Of a stretch of 64,000 nt of DNA, positions 17,850 to 59,287 are shown piece by piece. Source of the DNA: Methanosarcina sp. MSH10X1 (lineage in GTDB: Archaea > Halobacteriota > Methanosarcinia > Methanosarcinales > Methanosarcinaceae); contig NZ_SCHL01000012.1 in NCBI RefSeq assembly GCF_004099695.1, positions 1 through 64,000 of the forward strand, read 5' to 3'. The first letter of the stretch is position 1. Every line of letters begins with the position of its first letter. The notes under the pieces are model-generated. The model worked only from the letters and a program-made list of their open reading frames with translations. It searched no databases and had not been told where the DNA came from. Both the position numbers and the translations under genes were made by a program.

Positions 17850-18845
17850 ATGTTAGAAATCGATGGCTCTTATGGTGAAGGGGGAGGACAGATGGTCAGA
17901 ACAGCTGTTGCTCTTTCCGCAGTTACGGGGAAAGAAATCAAGGTTACGAATATCAGGAAAAACAGGCCAAATCCAGGCCTTAAACAGCAGCATTTAAAGG
18001 CTCTGGAAACTGCAGCCAGGATCTGTGAAGCCCGGATTTCGGGGCTTTTCCCAGGCTCTACTGAACTTTCTTTTGCTCCAGTGGAAATAAAGGGGGGTAA
18101 GTATGATATCGATATTGGGACCGCAGGAAGCATAACTCTGCTTCTCCAGTGCATTATGCCCGCCCTGCCGTTTGCTAAAGGGGAAGTCGAACTCACGGTA
18201 AGAGGAGGAACTGATGTGGCCTGGTCGCCAACAATGGATTACCTGCAGCATGTGACCTTAAAGGCTCTGGAAAGGCTTGGCTATTCAGGCAGCGTAACCC
18301 TGAAGGAACACGGTTACTATCCTAAAGGGGGAGGAAAAATTTTAGCTTTTTTTAAACCGTGCAGACTAAAAAGATTTCACTTTTTAAAAGAAGAAGAGGA
18401 AATAAAGGGGGTTTCTCATGCTTCGAATCTTCCGACTCATGTACCTTTACGCCAGGCTGAAGCTGCTGCCGCGAGATTAATGGAAGCCGGATATTCCTCC
18501 CGGATCGAAACTCAATCTTTTGAAGCCTTTTCCACCGGAAGCGGGATAACTCTCTGGACAGGTTATACAGGTGGGAGTGCCCTTGGGGAAAGGGGGCTTC
18601 CCGCAGAAGAAGTGGGCAAACATGCTGCAGACGAAATTATTCCTGAACTTAGATCAGGAGCTTCTGTAGACACCCACCTGGCAGACCAGCTAATACCTTA
18701 TATGGCTCTTGCAGGAAGCAGTTCCTATACGGTCAGGGAACTTTCTCTCCATGCTGCGACAAATATCTGGGTTACTGAACAGTTCCTTGATGTCAAATTC
18801 AGCATAGAGGAAAAAGAAGGCCTTTTTGAAGTATCGGTGAGCTGA
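17850..18845 (+). CDS. rtcA: RNA 3'-terminal phosphate cyclase RtcA
   Basis: The 331-residue enzyme turns RNA 3'-phosphate ends into 2',3'-cyclic phosphates, using ATP through an enzyme-AMP intermediate. The start MLEIDGSYGEGGGQ is typical, followed by PGLKQQHL, KGGGKI and ADQLIPYMALAG. The catalytic histidine is His301 in LSLHAATNI. A GTG four codons upstream is possible, but the family begins at the ATG used here. It follows the flavoprotein gene closely and converges on kptA, so two RNA-end enzymes are neighbours. Confidence 0.92.
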   Translation: MLEIDGSYGEGGGQMVRTAVALSAVTGKEIKVTNIRKNRPNPGLKQQHLKALETAARICEARISGLFPGSTELSFAPVEIKGGKYDIDIGTAGSITLLLQCIMPALPFAKGEVELTVRGGTDVAWSPTMDYLQHVTLKALERLGYSGSVTLKEHGYYPKGGGKILAFFKPCRLKRFHFLKEEEEIKGVSHASNLPTHVPLRQAEAAAARLMEAGYSSRIETQSFEAFSTGSGITLWTGYTGGSALGERGLPAEEVGKHAADEIIPELRSGASVDTHLADQLIPYMALAGSSSYTVRELSLHAATNIWVTEQFLDVKFSIEEKEGLFEVSVS

Positions 18846-22173: not shown

Positions 22174-22294
22174 TCATTCTCCCCCTTTAGCTTCTATTTT
22201 CTCATTTACTCATTATACCCTTGCTTTTCAAGGTAGAAACTTATGAGGTAAAAGCTTATGGAATGTGTTCCGAGGTAAAAACTTATGGAGTGTA

Positions 22295-22315
22295 TTCCAG
22301 TCGAAATAAAGGGGT
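22295..22315 (+). promoter_or_regulatory. ORB-like element downstream of rpa1 (copy 1)
   Basis: TTCCAGTCGAAATAAAGGGG plus T matches the archaeal origin recognition box bound by Orc1/Cdc6, with one change in the central GTGG. It is followed by GTTAAAAATTTCCTG, shared with copy 2 177 bp further on in the same orientation. Confidence 0.65.
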
Positions 22316-22471
22316 GTTAAAAATTTCCTGTGAGAAAAGTAGAAAGCATTGAAAATATAATTCGAGCTTTTTCTAAGCTATGTAAGCCTTCTTTCTAAAA
22401 TATCCTTCTCTGCTGCACTCTTTCCTTATACTGTTTTCGGATAATCGGACATTTTTCATTCTCAGCAAAAA

Positions 22472-22493
22472 CCTCCAGTGGAAACGAAGGGGT
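22472..22493 (+). promoter_or_regulatory. ORB-like element downstream of rpa1 (copy 2)
   Basis: TCCAGTGGAAACGAAGGGGT is a near-perfect match to the archaeal ORB core. As in copy 1, an AAAAATTTCCTG segment follows. Orc1/Cdc6 would be expected to bind here, either as part of an origin or to control a neighbouring promoter. Confidence 0.7.
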
Positions 22494-35811: not shown

Positions 35812-37056
35812 TCATGAGAACATCTTGTTGAAAACTGACGTTTTAAAATCCACCAGAGGTTTGAGCCTGTAATCTTCAAGAAGTACTTTACGGGTGTTTT
35901 CCACCGGAACACTCAGGGAAATTTCTTTAGTCCTGCCGTAGCGGCCTTTGCTTACAACGACAGCATTGACTATACCTAGCATATCAAGCTCGGACATAAG
36001 GTCAGTAACCCTGCGCTGTGTGAGGATGTCAACATCAATGTGATGACAAAGCTGGCGATAGACATTATACATCTCGCCCGTTGTGACATTCTTACCTTCT
36101 CTTCCCCGGTTCCGCAGGAGAATAATACTGTAGAGTACAAGTTTGGACTGAGTAGGAAGGGTTCTTACCACTTCAACCACACGATCAATTTCGATTTTTT
36201 CCTGAGCACGTCTCACATGCTCTTCAAGAACCTGAGGCTGGTTTTCCCTTTCTGCAATTTCCCCTGATACCCGCAGGAGGTCAAGTGCGCGCCTTGCATC
36301 GCCATGTTCCTGAGCTGCAAAGGCAGCGCATAAGGGTATTACCATTTCACCAAGAACTCCATCAGTGTAGGCCATTTTTGCCCTTTGTTTCAGAATATCG
36401 CTGATCTGTTCAGCGTCATAAGGAGGGAAAATGAGTTCTTCTTCGCCCAGGGAACTTTTAACTCTGGGATCCAGAAATTCAGTGAATTTCAGATCATTTG
36501 AAACACCGATCATACTGACTTTGGCTCTCCGCAGGTCTGTATTAATTCTTGAGAGGTTGTAAAGGACATCGTCACCTTTTTTAATCAGCTTATCGATTTC
36601 GTCCAGAATTATAATAATAACCTGTTCTCTGGAATCAATAGCCTCTTTAAATTTCATGAAGACCTGGTCGGTAGGCCAACCGGTCATAGGAACTTCTTCT
36701 TCAAAATGTCTGGCAAGATTTGCAAGGAGCCTGTACTGGGTATCGATTACCTCACAATTGATATAAACAACCGAGCAGAAAAGTGATTTGTCTTCGCTGA
36801 CCCTCTCAAGCTCTTTACCAACGTAGCGGGTAACAGCAGTTTTTCCTGTTCCTGTTTTTCCGTAAATGAGGACATTCGAAGGGGTTTCTCCTCGGAGTGC
36901 GGAAACCAGAATTGTTGCAAGACTATTAATTTGCTCATTCCTGTGCAGCAAAAGGTCAGGCGTGTAAGAAGGCCGAAGTACTTCTTTGTTTTTGAAAATT
37001 GATTTTCCGTCAAGTAATTTTTCGAATAAGCCGTCTAGTGATTGAGCTTTTATCAT
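35812..37056 (-). CDS. cdc6: Orc1/Cdc6 origin recognition protein
   Basis: The 414-residue AAA+ initiator marks origins and loads MCM. Walker A is GKTGTGKT (residues 66-73), Walker B is IILDEIDKL, and sensor motifs include GVSNDLKF. A C-terminal winged-helix DNA-binding domain occupies residues about 310-400 (TQRRVTDLMSELDMLG). Length is typical of archaeal Orc1/Cdc6. The gene points away from the ORB cluster at 38.2-39.2 kb, the usual arrangement for Orc1-1 beside its origin. Its upstream region is very AT-rich. Confidence 0.95.
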   Translation of the reverse strand: MIKAQSLDGLFEKLLDGKSIFKNKEVLRPSYTPDLLLHRNEQINSLATILVSALRGETPSNVLIYGKTGTGKTAVTRYVGKELERVSEDKSLFCSVVYINCEVIDTQYRLLANLARHFEEEVPMTGWPTDQVFMKFKEAIDSREQVIIIILDEIDKLIKKGDDVLYNLSRINTDLRRAKVSMIGVSNDLKFTEFLDPRVKSSLGEEELIFPPYDAEQISDILKQRAKMAYTDGVLGEMVIPLCAAFAAQEHGDARRALDLLRVSGEIAERENQPQVLEEHVRRAQEKIEIDRVVEVVRTLPTQSKLVLYSIILLRNRGREGKNVTTGEMYNVYRQLCHHIDVDILTQRRVTDLMSELDMLGIVNAVVVSKGRYGRTKEISLSVPVENTRKVLLEDYRLKPLVDFKTSVFNKMFS

Positions 37057-38172
37057 GAATGACCCTCTATAAAAATTGATGATATCAAGCGCTTAAGGGG
37101 TTAGATAATAGATACACCTTTAATGCGAATAATTAATATATATAATAAATTAATAAAGTCATAATGTGTATGCAATTTATTAATACGGTGGGTACACAAT
37201 GTGCTAACTTTTTCTTTGCACTACTTTCATTTGTTTTATTGGCTAGAGTAAACCGTAATAGTTGAGACTTTATTCACAGAATATATTTTTGGAGGATTCT
37301 GCTACGCAGTTTTAAATTTTTTAGCTTGAATATAGGCCTGCGAATTTAATAGCCAGGTTTACTCTTTTTAATACTTTTTTAAATTCACCTTTAAGGTTTT
37401 ACTGTTGCCTGAAACGGGAGAAATTCTTAAAGGTTGCGCCAAGTTTTATTCTTTGACTCAACTGTTGGACATTTGTGTCTTATATTATCTCCTGAAGTTA
37501 GCTCCTTAGAGTTATCTCCTGAGAACTGTTTTCTTGGAGTTACTGTTATATATTTTTCTAAGAAAATATTTTAAGTAACTAGAATTATAACTTCAACTTA
37601 GGGATAAGTTTTATATTGCTGATACAATAGCCATTGAGCCATTTTAAGATAATTATTGTAATGATTACCAGAAAACTTCAAAGTATTGTAAATTGAATTT
37701 CTTAAATGGAATATTTGAAGGGGGGTTGGTTTCAAATTTCAAACTTTTAATTTCAAACCTTTAACTTCAAACCTTTAACTTCAAACCTTTAATTTCAAAC
37801 CTTTAATTTCAAACCTTTAACTTCAGACCTTTAACTTCAGATCTTTAATTACAAAATCTTTATTCCCGCAATCAGGAACTAAACTTTACTTTATGTACTC
37901 TGGATTTTCACTTATGATTCTTTGCGCTTTTTATGAAAACCCCTCTGAATCCTGTTCATAAGGAGAAAGGGATAGAAGATACATGTTTCTTATAGTTAAT
38001 GCCTGAAATATTCATTTTTTGCTAATTGCTGCTAAATTGTCGGGCAAGTCTTCCTTAATAAAGCGCACTTCAAACCCAGAGAAAATCTACATTCAGGATC
38101 TTCTTTTAACAAAACTTTAGGTGAAACTGGTATATAAGCAAGTAATTTTTAGCTATATTTGCAGTAGATGCA
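37057..38172. other. AT-rich region upstream of orc1/cdc6
   Basis: There is no convincing gene in 1.1 kb. AT-only stretches occur at 37120-37180. An exact 14-bp repeat array lies at 37737-37848. It must hold the orc1/cdc6 promoter. A TATA-like TATATAAG lies near 38130, in front of the small 38173 gene. Confidence 0.6.
37737..37848. repeat. Eight exact-length 14-bp repeats near the origin
   Basis: Eight consecutive 14-bp units of the form TTTCAAACCTTTAA or CTTCAAACCTTTAA follow one another without length change; the last two carry CAGA. Regular iterons next to orc1/cdc6 may help unwinding or bind a protein, though similar arrays occur in other gaps of this window. Confidence 0.85.
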
Positions 38173-38370
38173 ATGGAAGTACACGTTATTAATTGTTATG
38201 GTAAAGACCCGTTTGTTTCCACTGGAAAGCGTTTTACCTTAAATATCCATAACAGAAATCGTTATCATGAAGCACATTATGTTTTAAAAAAAAGATTCCG
38301 GATTCCAGAACCAATCGAGGTTGAATTTAAATCCTTCTTTTCAGATGGAAGAAGTTATGAAAATTTTTGA
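38173..38370 (+). CDS. Small protein of unknown function overlapping an ORB
   Basis: The 65-residue, rather basic protein starts MEVHVINCYGKDPF and ends SDGRSYENF, and its composition is protein-like. A TATA-like sequence lies about 40 bp upstream, and a 15-bp inverted repeat follows the stop directly, which supports a real transcript. The codons for GKDPFVSTGKRF are at the same time an ORB on the minus strand (38206-38229). The frame may therefore be an accident of origin DNA. No family was recognised. Confidence 0.4.
   Translation: MEVHVINCYGKDPFVSTGKRFTLNIHNRNRYHEAHYVLKKRFRIPEPIEVEFKSFFSDGRSYENF
38206..38229 (-). promoter_or_regulatory. ORB-like element 1 of the putative origin
   Basis: On the minus strand TTTCCAGTGGAAACAAACGG followed by GTC matches the ORB core with one change in the G-tract. 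The flanking TTTACC recalls TTTTCC next to element 2. Confidence 0.65.
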
Positions 38371-38372
38371 TT

Positions 38373-38412
38373 TTTTATCTTAAATTTAAAGAATAAAAAA
38401 TTTAAGATAAAA
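38373..38412. terminator. AT-rich 15-bp inverted repeat
   Basis: TTTTATCTTAAATTT and its complement enclose a 10-nt loop, starting 3 bp after the small-gene stop. It could be a terminator or an extruding cruciform in origin DNA. Confidence 0.5.
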
Positions 38413-38499
38413 TCACACTTATACATGAATTATCCTGCTTGTAGTAAAAAAGAATAGGGGAATTGAGCATACAAGAGAAGAATATAACCAAAAGAGAAG

Positions 38500-38800
38500 A
38501 ATTAAGGAAATGGGGAAAATAAAGGAAGATAGATAAAATAGGGGAAGTAAGGGAAACAAAGAAAATAAGGGAAGTAAGGGAAGATAGATAAAATAAGGGA
38601 AGTAAGGGAAGATAGATAAAATAGGGGAAGTAAGGGAAACAAAGAAAATAGGAGAAATAAAGGAAATAAGGAAGATAGGGGAAAAAGGGGAAAAAGGGGA
38701 AATAAAAAATAAAGAAAATAGGGGAAAAAGGGGAAATAAAAAATAAAGAAAATAGGGGAAAAAGGGGAAAATAAAGAAAATGAGAACAATGATAAAGGAG
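38500..38800. repeat. Purine-rich low-complexity tract left of the origin core
   Basis: The plus strand is almost only A and G, built from repeats of GGGAAGTAAGGGAAGATAGATAAAATA and AAAATAGGGGAAAAAGGGG. It ends just before ORB elements 2 and 3. Confidence 0.85.
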
Positions 38801-38823
38801 AAATTAAAGTAACTATAGGAAAA

Positions 38824-38847
38824 GACCCCTTTATTTCCACTGGAAGG
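38824..38847 (-). promoter_or_regulatory. ORB-like element 2 of the putative origin
   Basis: On the minus strand CTTCCAGTGGAAATAAAGGG followed by GTC is a near-perfect ORB core. Confidence 0.75.
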
Positions 38848-38861
38848 TTTATATAACCCCC

Positions 38862-38884
38862 GGACCCCATGATTTCCACTAGAG
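38862..38884 (-). promoter_or_regulatory. ORB-like element 3 of the putative origin
   Basis: On the minus strand CTCTAGTGGAAATCATGGGG followed by TCC has the ORB core with small changes. It lies 38 bp from element 2 in the same orientation. Confidence 0.6.
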
Positions 38885-39151
38885 AGGGGTTAGGGTTCAG
38901 AGCAACAAAATAAAAAAAGGTTTTATTTTGTGAAGCAACAAAATAATGTTGTTTAGTTATAAAACTATTAGTATATATAGGTTATTATAAGTACAGACTG
39001 AAAACTGGATTTTAAAATTTAAAGCACATTGTAGAAAAAATTCTCATTCTCCAAAATAAAATGATTCATTCCCTAAAATAAATTCTTTTTAATATTCCTA
39101 AATTCATTAGAATTTACTTCTCTATTCGCTTCCCTTATCATCGTGGAAATG

Positions 39152-39172
39152 TTTCCAGTAGAAATATAGGGG
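39152..39172 (+). promoter_or_regulatory. ORB-like element 4 of the putative origin, inverted
   Basis: TTTCCAGTAGAAATATAGGG followed by G and T lies on the plus strand, opposite to elements 1-3, and marks the right edge of the AT-rich core. Confidence 0.65.
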
Positions 39173-39224
39173 TCCCCCTCTGTAGCAGACATTTCTATGA
39201 TTAAAGTAACTTATCGCTCCTCAT

Positions 39225-39620
39225 TTTTACTAATTATTTATCCAGTAGATACGATAACTTTTCTTTTTTATTTCCTTTTCTATTTCCTTTTTTATTTCAT
39301 TCTTTTATATTTCCCTCTTTTTTATTTCCTTTTTTATTTCATTCTTTTTTTGTTTTGCATAAGATCTTACTTATTTTTTTTATTTCTCTTTTTTCTTGCA
39401 TTTCTTTCTTTTTACGATAATTCTTACTTTATTTTAATTTCCTTTCCTTCCACTCTCTATTTCACTTACTCTTCTCTAAACACTAAATCTTTCTTTAATT
39501 TACCTTTACCTTCATCAGTTTATTCTCTTTTAATCCTCTTTTAATTCTCTTTTAATTCTCTTTTAATTCTCTTTTAATTCTCTTTTAATTCTCTTTTAAT
39601 TCTCTTTTAATTCTCTTTTT
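39225..39620. repeat. Pyrimidine-rich tract with 11-bp repeats right of the origin core
   Basis: The plus strand is dominated by T and C (TTTTATTTCCTTTT-like words). From 39525 to 39617 about eight exact 11-bp units of CTCTTTTAATT follow one another. It is the mirror image in base composition of the purine tract on the other side of the core. Confidence 0.85.
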
Positions 39621-39879
39621 TATGTTTGGCTTTCTTTTCATGCTCCTTTTACTGGTTGATAGTATCAACAATATCATTCTCTTCAGCATTAATCTCACGT
39701 ACTTCCCGATCCCAGTATTACTCACATATCTCTTTTGTGGGCATTTTCTTAACTGTTAAATCATTCATAATAAGTCGGTGCTTCTGGACTCTTCTGAAAT
39801 GCCATTAAGACGGTTATCCGGTAATTTAGCAGTTATAATCCATAAGTCTTTTAAATAAAATTGGTTTTACTTTATCCAT

Positions 39880-41082
39880 ATGAATGAGCAGGGTCTTTCT
39901 GAGAACGAGATATTTTCCTATCTGGAAAATGTAAAGTCAGAAGATACGGATTACTATAAGGTTCTGAGTTCGATGTGCACTCACCCGCATAAGATCGCGG
40001 TTGAGGCTCACAGACTTTTTATTGAAGCTAACCTGGGTGACCTGGGACTCTTTGCTGGTGCTCACAGGCTGGAAAGAGAAGTAGTCGGAATGCTTGGAGA
40101 ACTTCTTCATGCTCAATCTGTTGATACTCAGTCTGTTAAAATTCCTTCCGGAGAATCCTGTGAGAATACAGTCTGCGGCTATCTCACAACAGGAGGTACG
40201 GAATCCAATATCCAGGCTGTCAGGGGTATGAAAAACCTTGTAGAAGCTGGCGGGAAAAACTCAGGGGAAATTCCCAATATAGTTATTCCCGAATCAGCTC
40301 ATTTCTCATTTGACAAGGTTGCAAATATGATGGGCATTGAGGTTAAAAGAGCTCTTCTGGATTCCGAATTTAAAGTGGATACCGCATCTGTGGAAAGTCT
40401 GATAGATGCAAATACCATCGGACTCGTAGGGATAGCAGGCAATACAGAATTCGGTCAGATAGATCCTATTGAGGAACTTGCAAAGCTTGCTCTTGATAAT
40501 GAGCTTTTCCTTCACATTGATGCAGCTTTTGGAGGGTTTGTGATCCCATTCCTTGAAAACCCGCAACCTTTCGATTTCAAAGTTCCGGGCGTTACTTCCA
40601 TTGCAATAGACCCTCATAAGATGGGACTTTCCACAATTCCGTCAGGTGCCCTATTATTCAGATCTCCTTCTTTTCTGGATTCCCTCAAGGTAAACACTCC
40701 GTACCTTACAACAAAGGCACAGTTTACTCTTACAGGTACCCGGAGCGGGGCTTCAGCTGCTGCCACATATGCTGTTATGAAACACCTGGGCCGTGAAGGA
40801 TATCGAAAAAATGTACAGTATTGCATGCAGCTTACATCAAAACTGGTTGAAGAAGCTCGAAAACTCGGGTTCGAACCTCTAATCGAACCCGTAATGAATG
40901 TAGTTGCCCTGAGAGTTCCAAGCCCTGACCTTGTGCGAGAGCGACTCCTGAGAAAATTCGGCTGGAATGTTTCAATAACCCGTAACCCCAGATCTCTCCG
41001 TCTTGTTCTAATGCCCCACAACACCCCTCAGGACGTTGGAGAGTTTCTACAAGATCTGGAAAAAGTAACGGCAGAATTTTAA
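39880..41082 (+). CDS. mfnA: L-tyrosine/L-aspartate decarboxylase MfnA
   Basis: The 400-residue PLP enzyme is a group II decarboxylase. In methanogens it makes tyramine for methanofuran, and in some archaea beta-alanine from aspartate. The Schiff-base lysine is Lys247 in IAIDPHKMG; further marks are TTGGTESN, HIDAAFGGF and TGTRSGA. Length is typical for archaeal MfnA. It lies just right of the putative origin on the plus strand, with a TATA-like TTTTAAATAAAA upstream. Confidence 0.9.
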   Translation: MNEQGLSENEIFSYLENVKSEDTDYYKVLSSMCTHPHKIAVEAHRLFIEANLGDLGLFAGAHRLEREVVGMLGELLHAQSVDTQSVKIPSGESCENTVCGYLTTGGTESNIQAVRGMKNLVEAGGKNSGEIPNIVIPESAHFSFDKVANMMGIEVKRALLDSEFKVDTASVESLIDANTIGLVGIAGNTEFGQIDPIEELAKLALDNELFLHIDAAFGGFVIPFLENPQPFDFKVPGVTSIAIDPHKMGLSTIPSGALLFRSPSFLDSLKVNTPYLTTKAQFTLTGTRSGASAAATYAVMKHLGREGYRKNVQYCMQLTSKLVEEARKLGFEPLIEPVMNVVALRVPSPDLVRERLLRKFGWNVSITRNPRSLRLVLMPHNTPQDVGEFLQDLEKVTAEF

Positions 41083-57976: not shown

Positions 57977-59287
57977 ATGCATCCTGTGTTTATATTCCTT
58001 TTTGCCCTTATCCTTATTCTATTTTTTACAGCCAGACTCAGGCTGCACCCTTTTCTTAGCCTTGTTCTTGTATCCGTTTTTACAGGCGCCCTTGCAGGGG
58101 AGCCCCTGGCTACGGTTGAAGCAATAACTGAAGGATTGGGCAGCGTTTTTTCCCGTTTTGCTATTATTATTACCTGTGGAAGCGTCATAGGAATTCTACT
58201 CCAGAGCACGGGAGGAATGTCGTTAATAGCTTCTGATATTATACGTTTTTTCAAAAACCCTTTACTTGCCCTGAATCTTATCGGGTTTCTCTGTTCTGTA
58301 CCCCTGATGTGTTACATTCTTGCCTATGTTATCTTTATTCCAATAGCTAAAGAGTTAGCTGCCAGACTCGATAACCCCTCTATTTCCACTGCAACGGCCC
58401 TTGCACTTGGAGCTGTTGCCTCATTTAATCTTGTCTATCCTTCACCTGTAATAATCTCGGCAGCAGAAGAACTTTCAGCCAGTGAGGACAGGCTTTTTAT
58501 CCTTGGATTTCTTATCGCAATTCCGGTTTCCGTAACAGGTTACCTTTATGCCAGAAGGCTGGGAATGACTGGATCCGAAACAACCAGAACCGTAAAAAAG
58601 AAAGTGGAAATAGGGAATGAAAACATAAAAATTTATAAAACCACTGCCGAAGAACCCGGAAGGCTTGAGGCTTACTCTCCTATTTTTTTCCCTTTACTCC
58701 TGATTTTCTTTCAGGCAGGTTTTGAGCATTCGTATCCTGTGCTTGAATTCCTGGGAGATCCTAATATTGCGCTTCTTACAGGAGTTATTCTGTCCATATC
58801 TTCCGGCAGAAGGCTCGGATTTTCCGTGCTGAGTGAACTGATCGAAAAAGCTGTGAGGAGAAGTGGAGTTGTCCTTCTCGATCTTTGCGGAGGAGGAGCG
58901 CTCGGTGCAACCCTTGCCATGACAGGAGCAGGTGAAGCGTTAGGCCAGCTTTTCCTGCAATTGAGCCTTCCTCATATTCTTATACCTTTTCTTGTAGCCG
59001 CAGCCCTTCAAACCGTACAGGGATCAAGGGTTGTAACCATGCTCATTGCACCTTCCCTGATATTGCCTCTTGTTCCTGAACTCGGGCTTCCTCCGGAAAT
59101 CCTTATTCTCTCAATGGCTTCTGGCACTTTTGTATTTTCCCATGTCAACGATCCTTTCTTCTGGATTTTCGGAGAGCTTGCAGAACTGGAGCCCTCCGAA
59201 GTTTTCAGATCAAATACTCTTGGGAATGCCCTTATGGGTGCAGTGAGTCTCCTGCTTGTATCTGCTGCTTATGTGCTCTTTTATTGA
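57977..59287 (+). CDS. GntP-family permease
   Basis: The integral membrane protein has about 436 residues and roughly 11-12 hydrophobic segments. LHPFLSLVLVSVFTGALAGE, a conserved AIIITCGSVIGILLQSTGG and the late AALQTVQGSRVV follow the gluconate permease (GntP) family. The substrate in a methanogen is unknown and may be an organic acid. A start 28 codons upstream would overlap cheW and add a basic, non-membrane segment, so I use the ATG at 57977. It may be co-transcribed with cheW by position, but no functional link is evident. Confidence 0.82.
   Translation: MHPVFIFLFALILILFFTARLRLHPFLSLVLVSVFTGALAGEPLATVEAITEGLGSVFSRFAIIITCGSVIGILLQSTGGMSLIASDIIRFFKNPLLALNLIGFLCSVPLMCYILAYVIFIPIAKELAARLDNPSISTATALALGAVASFNLVYPSPVIISAAEELSASEDRLFILGFLIAIPVSVTGYLYARRLGMTGSETTRTVKKKVEIGNENIKIYKTTAEEPGRLEAYSPIFFPLLLIFFQAGFEHSYPVLEFLGDPNIALLTGVILSISSGRRLGFSVLSELIEKAVRRSGVVLLDLCGGGALGATLAMTGAGEALGQLFLQLSLPHILIPFLVAAALQTVQGSRVVTMLIAPSLILPLVPELGLPPEILILSMASGTFVFSHVNDPFFWIFGELAELEPSEVFRSNTLGNALMGAVSLLLVSAAYVLFY

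Follow-up and report, generated by a model that had tools for sequence, protein, structure and literature searches.

We propose that positions 38160-39173 of the window, which is the first 64,000 nucleotides of contig C3 in a Methanosarcina genome (3.56 Mb in 55 contigs), are in all probability the chromosomal replication origin oriC, of the cdc6-linked archaeal type. The earlier note had read this place as oriC, and its reading is now supported by the initiator gene, inverted origin recognition boxes (ORBs), an A+T-rich core, a hairpin and spacing that is fixed across Methanosarcinales. The region belongs to an intergenic space of about 2.8 kb (37057-39879) between orc1/cdc6, on the minus strand, and the tyrosine decarboxylase gene mfnA, which starts at 39880 on the plus strand and makes up the far flank. 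The initiator gene (35812-37056) is of the Orc1-1 type (NF001625, E 3.3e-220; TIGR02928, E 4.7e-150): its product carries the lid and winged-helix domains in Pfam, and the nearest solved structure is that of Sulfolobus Orc1-1 on DNA (2qby_A, E 5e-113). A second cdc6 gene, cdc6-2 on contig C22, was ruled out as a second origin, as no ORB lies near it.

ORBs were sought with the motif published for Methanomicrobia, TCCA[GC]T[GT]GAAA[CT][AG]A[AT]GGGGT (PMC4164010, table 1), allowing up to 3 substitutions. The intergenic space holds only four matches: three on the minus strand, at 38207 (1 substitution), 38825 (none) and 38864 (2), and one on the plus strand at 39154 (2). They are the four boxes that had been pointed out earlier, at 38206, 38824 and 38862 (minus) and 39152 (plus). 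In 300 dinucleotide shuffles of the space the motif was not matched once, so ORBs with the GGGGT end are commoner here than chance (four against none). This test is independent of our own ORB matrix. Trained on these very loci of the order, the matrix matches shuffled sequence at a rate of 0.006 per kb at 10 bits or more. With the matrix, the box of element A (38207-38228, minus) scores 31.5 bits, B1 (38825-38846, minus) 35.4 bits, B2 (38864-38885, minus) 28.2 bits and the inverted box C (39152-39173, plus) 29.2 bits; B2 and C each depart from the consensus at two positions. The matrix also finds a fifth, degenerate box absent from the earlier note: B1' (38330-38351, minus; 14.9 bits), placed 123 bp from A.

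B1 and B2 stand on one side of an A+T-rich core, the presumed unwinding element, and C on the opposite side in inverted orientation. The core (38886-39151) measures 266 bp and is 74% A+T, in line with the stretch of about 265 bp proposed before. The 11-bp inverted repeat claimed for it is equally real: the hairpin (38905-38931, arms 38905-38915 and 38921-38931) lies 19 bp past B2, and its fold is stronger than that of shuffled sequence (z -3.7). A long perfect stem occupies the same place in 12 of 13 Methanosarcina loci and in 17 of 29 from other Methanosarcinaceae (p<=0.05 each); none was found at this position in the loci of ANME-2 and Methanoperedens. Beside the core, a purine-rich tract on the left (38440-38800, purine fraction 0.88) and a pyrimidine-rich one on the right (39230-39620, 0.23) are the most extreme of the window, with a weaker likeness in part of Methanosarcina. 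As an origin feature such symmetric arms were rejected, being absent in other genera.

The arrangement was followed through 80 fetched loci with a related cdc6. Reading upstream from cdc6, one arrangement is repeated: box A, the B1 and B2 pair, the core, then the inverted C. A B pair with an inverted C is present upstream of cdc6 in 62 of 81 sequences; the remainder are mostly truncated at contig ends, apart from a few without a pair. Of the 44 Methanosarcinaceae that have a pair, 43 place B1 and B2 at a pitch of 39 bp; in lineages further removed the pitch is 34-39 bp. Between the two boxes lies a TATA-like box, GTTTATATAA (38847-38858, plus), which recurs in 36 of the 44 Methanosarcinaceae as against 10% of random A+T-rich 22-mers; this may be a promoter directed towards the core, or simply DNA that bends easily. 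The conserved islands coincide with element A and with the B-core-C module, and the low-complexity tracts fall outside them. Judged by sequence, every testable hallmark of a cdc6-linked archaeal origin is present and kept across Methanosarcinales.

In the other genera the entire origin is compact, about 0.5 kb long, and sits immediately upstream of cdc6. In Methanosarcina, a weak box B1' follows about 124 bp past A, and several species add a B2' 39-40 bp further on; the B1' relic is seen in most Methanosarcina loci, sometimes together with B2'. These boxes look like relics because their spacing from A is the ancestral one. The intact B1-B2-core-C module is found 0.3-4 kb past the part with A and the relic, beside mfnA. 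As the alignments have it, then, the Methanosarcina origin is bipartite: A and a decayed B relic 1.1 kb upstream of cdc6, and an intact B-core-C by mfnA. The ancestral compact origin (A-B1-B2-core-C, about 0.5 kb) would have been split into these two parts within the genus. At four of the loci (L004, L009, L013 and L014), box A is separated from the B-core-C module by a gene of about 500 codons, sodium/solute symporter-like by its sequence, to which the genome of the window has nothing closer than distant homologues (26-28% identity). We infer that B was duplicated with insertion of this gene, which was later lost in the genome studied here.

The ORB nearest to cdc6 is part of a larger unit. 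Across 15 aligned Methanosarcina loci, element A (38160-38228, minus) combines the box with a near-invariant extension of about 45 bp, to a total of about 68 bp, and reads in the cdc6 direction GGGTCTTTACCATAAC-ATTAATA...CTTCCATTGCATCTACTGCA, after which comes a conserved TTTATATA. It is recognisable in other Methanosarcinaceae and weaker in ANME-2 and Methanoperedens; in Methanolobus, ANME-2 and Methanoperedens, parts of it lie no more than some 35-50 bp from the start of cdc6, where a promoter is expected. In the window, the conserved TTTATATA would provide a TATA box at about 38129-38139 for a candidate cdc6 promoter (38105-38139, minus), whose transcript would begin near 38105 and would therefore have a leader of about 1.05 kb, running through the iterons. 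These features suggest an ORB-controlled cdc6 promoter at element A: through box A, on a promoter-like element 1.1 kb upstream of cdc6, Orc1/Cdc6 would most likely regulate its own gene.

Conservation around element A covers 37876-38425, and does not extend to the iterons or the purine tract. About 300 bp of this, from the iterons to element A (37876-38172), are gene-free and conserved in close relatives; they may be part of the long cdc6 leader, and a search of Rfam with this stretch returned no match. The iterons themselves (37735-37855) had been described as eight exact 14-bp copies; the array exists, but it is not exact, with 8.6 copies at 91% matches. We rejected it as a set of functional origin repeats, since it falls outside the stretches conserved in relatives and many such arrays occur in the window; it is probably irrelevant to the origin.

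By analogy with characterised archaeal origins, ATP-bound Orc1/Cdc6 would occupy B1 and B2 at one edge of the A+T-rich core and, with opposite polarity, C at the far edge, and would recruit MCM into the core itself. Melting of the core would then give rise to two divergent forks.

ORBs also occur away from the origin. With up to one mismatch, ACCCCNNNNTTTCNACTGGA has 12 matches genome-wide, as against 1 for the reversed control, and the matches outside the origin and coding sequence fall into two satellite sites. One is a pair behind rpa (22294-22493, plus; boxes 22294-22315 and 22472-22493, of 33.5 and 35.1 bits), with the motif at 22296 and 22474, 178 bp apart, and about 16 kb from the origin; it keeps its place in every Methanosarcina genome checked and also occurs in sister genera. 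The other is a cluster of three same-direction ORBs on contig C22 (279105-279915; 3106-3916 of locus L087), where a radical-SAM-like gene and a DhnA-type aldolase gene converge, hundreds of kb from the origin; most Methanosarcina have it, as does genus g11, and single boxes occur in genus g5. In a closed relative (G006), of which 1.6 Mb were scanned, five of the ten sites of at least 20 bits belong to these two satellites. Further ORB-like sequences lie in coding DNA, at 18075-18096 (rtcA) and 58374-58395 (a gluconate-permease-like gene), and also near the origin in the same relative; they are probably fixed by protein sequence, and the matches at 18077 and 58374 were excluded as satellites for lying inside coding sequence.

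Both satellites have their boxes in the same direction, with no inverted partner and no cdc6 gene. They correspond to what defines a titration locus, clusters of initiator boxes away from the unwinding element, and by this analogy could be initiator-titration or regulatory sites. More tentatively, and with some doubt, we suggest a dispersed metering of the initiator, in which Orc1/Cdc6 would repress its own promoter via element A while the cdc6-less satellites would titrate it.

Strand composition was analysed in G006, at half coverage; the genome of the window is split into 55 contigs. The GC skew of G006 gives a two-arm pattern that is not significant against permutation. In the contrast of purine content between left and right, the site homologous to the origin ranks 1 of 80 positions at a 500-kb span, and 6, 4 and 2 at the other spans tried. 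The cumulative purine curve peaks in the sampled stretch adjoining the origin. Taken together, composition is weak support for the origin.

A rival reading is that the boxes only regulate cdc6, and perhaps mfnA, the origin being elsewhere or replication being started by recombination as in Thermococcus kodakarensis and origin-deleted Haloferax. In its favour, origin-independent replication is known (PMC5663688), the genome has further ORB clusters, a promoter-like element is joined to box A, and GC skew gives the origin weak support. We nevertheless consider this very unlikely: the intact B-core-C sits apart from the cdc6 promoter, and its inverted boxes, core and hairpin, needless for a regulator of cdc6, are kept even past an intervening gene, while inverted boxes are what the satellites do not have. 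It is very improbable that the aldolase-side cluster (contig C22, 279105-279894) is instead the main or a second origin. The genus has kept its three ORBs, which lie within 0.8 kb, but all point in one direction, no initiator gene adjoins them (cdc6-2 is 247 kb away), and their distance to the cdc6 origin differs among genomes.

Box A could itself be the mere coding sequence of a small gene, since a 65-codon frame with an ATG is open over it (38173-38370) and the DNA is conserved. Relatives keep the DNA block and the ORB, yet in them the frame is interrupted by frameshifts and in-frame stops, and it has no match in Pfam or NCBIfam; on the strength of the stops we rejected the small gene, and leave it next to no probability. 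The cdc6-linked origin at 38160-39173 stays our preferred reading.

An origin of this type, the cdc6-linked archaeal oriC, is already known. Single origins have been predicted from composition in M. mazei and M. acetivorans (PMC3984812), the former by the Z curve (Zhang and Zhang 2002, as cited in PMC3984812 and PMC5333045); among methanogens, only the origin of M. thermautotrophicus has been tested (PMC3984812), and our literature search found no experiment on any Methanosarcina origin. The prediction for M. mazei (see also DoriC/Ori-Finder 2, PMC4164010) concerns the same genus, a single origin and the same class of ORB motif; the accounts that cite it do not mention a bipartite layout, the 39-bp pitch, element A or satellites.

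Sulfolobus oriC1, arranged as ORB2-DUE-ORB3 beside orc1-1 (PMC12141716), likewise has inverted ORBs around an A+T-rich core and an Orc1-1 type initiator gene close by. Methanosarcina differs in having, on one side, a tandem pair of ORBs together with a TATA-like box, and in a core of 266 bp compared with the 130 bp of the Sulfolobus ORB3-DUE-ORB2 (PMC12141716). Inverted ORBs are also a feature of oriC1 in Haloarcula hispanica, in which the ORB-rich oriC2D, outside the origin, dampens firing, probably by titration (PMC3936714). However, oriC2D is directly downstream of oriC2-cdc6E (PMC3936714), whereas the Methanosarcina satellites, which have no cdc6, lie at distances of 16 kb to more than 1 Mb from the origin. 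Bacterial datA and the boxes of the dnaA promoter (named in PMC3936714) offer an analogy, with initiator boxes both in the initiator's promoter and at a distance, although the proteins and boxes are unrelated.

The present analysis adds to this the conserved map, the bipartite layout, element A and the satellites. The map names the boxes to mutate, and the bipartite layout separates the probable replication boxes (B1, B2 and C) from the probable cdc6-control box (A). Both M. acetivorans and M. mazei are amenable to genetics. With the satellites, titration of the initiator can be put to the test in an archaeon that has one main origin; if they do titrate, these distant cdc6-less sites would extend the idea of oriC2D in Haloarcula hispanica, and conserved ORB copies elsewhere in the chromosome may help to meter replication.
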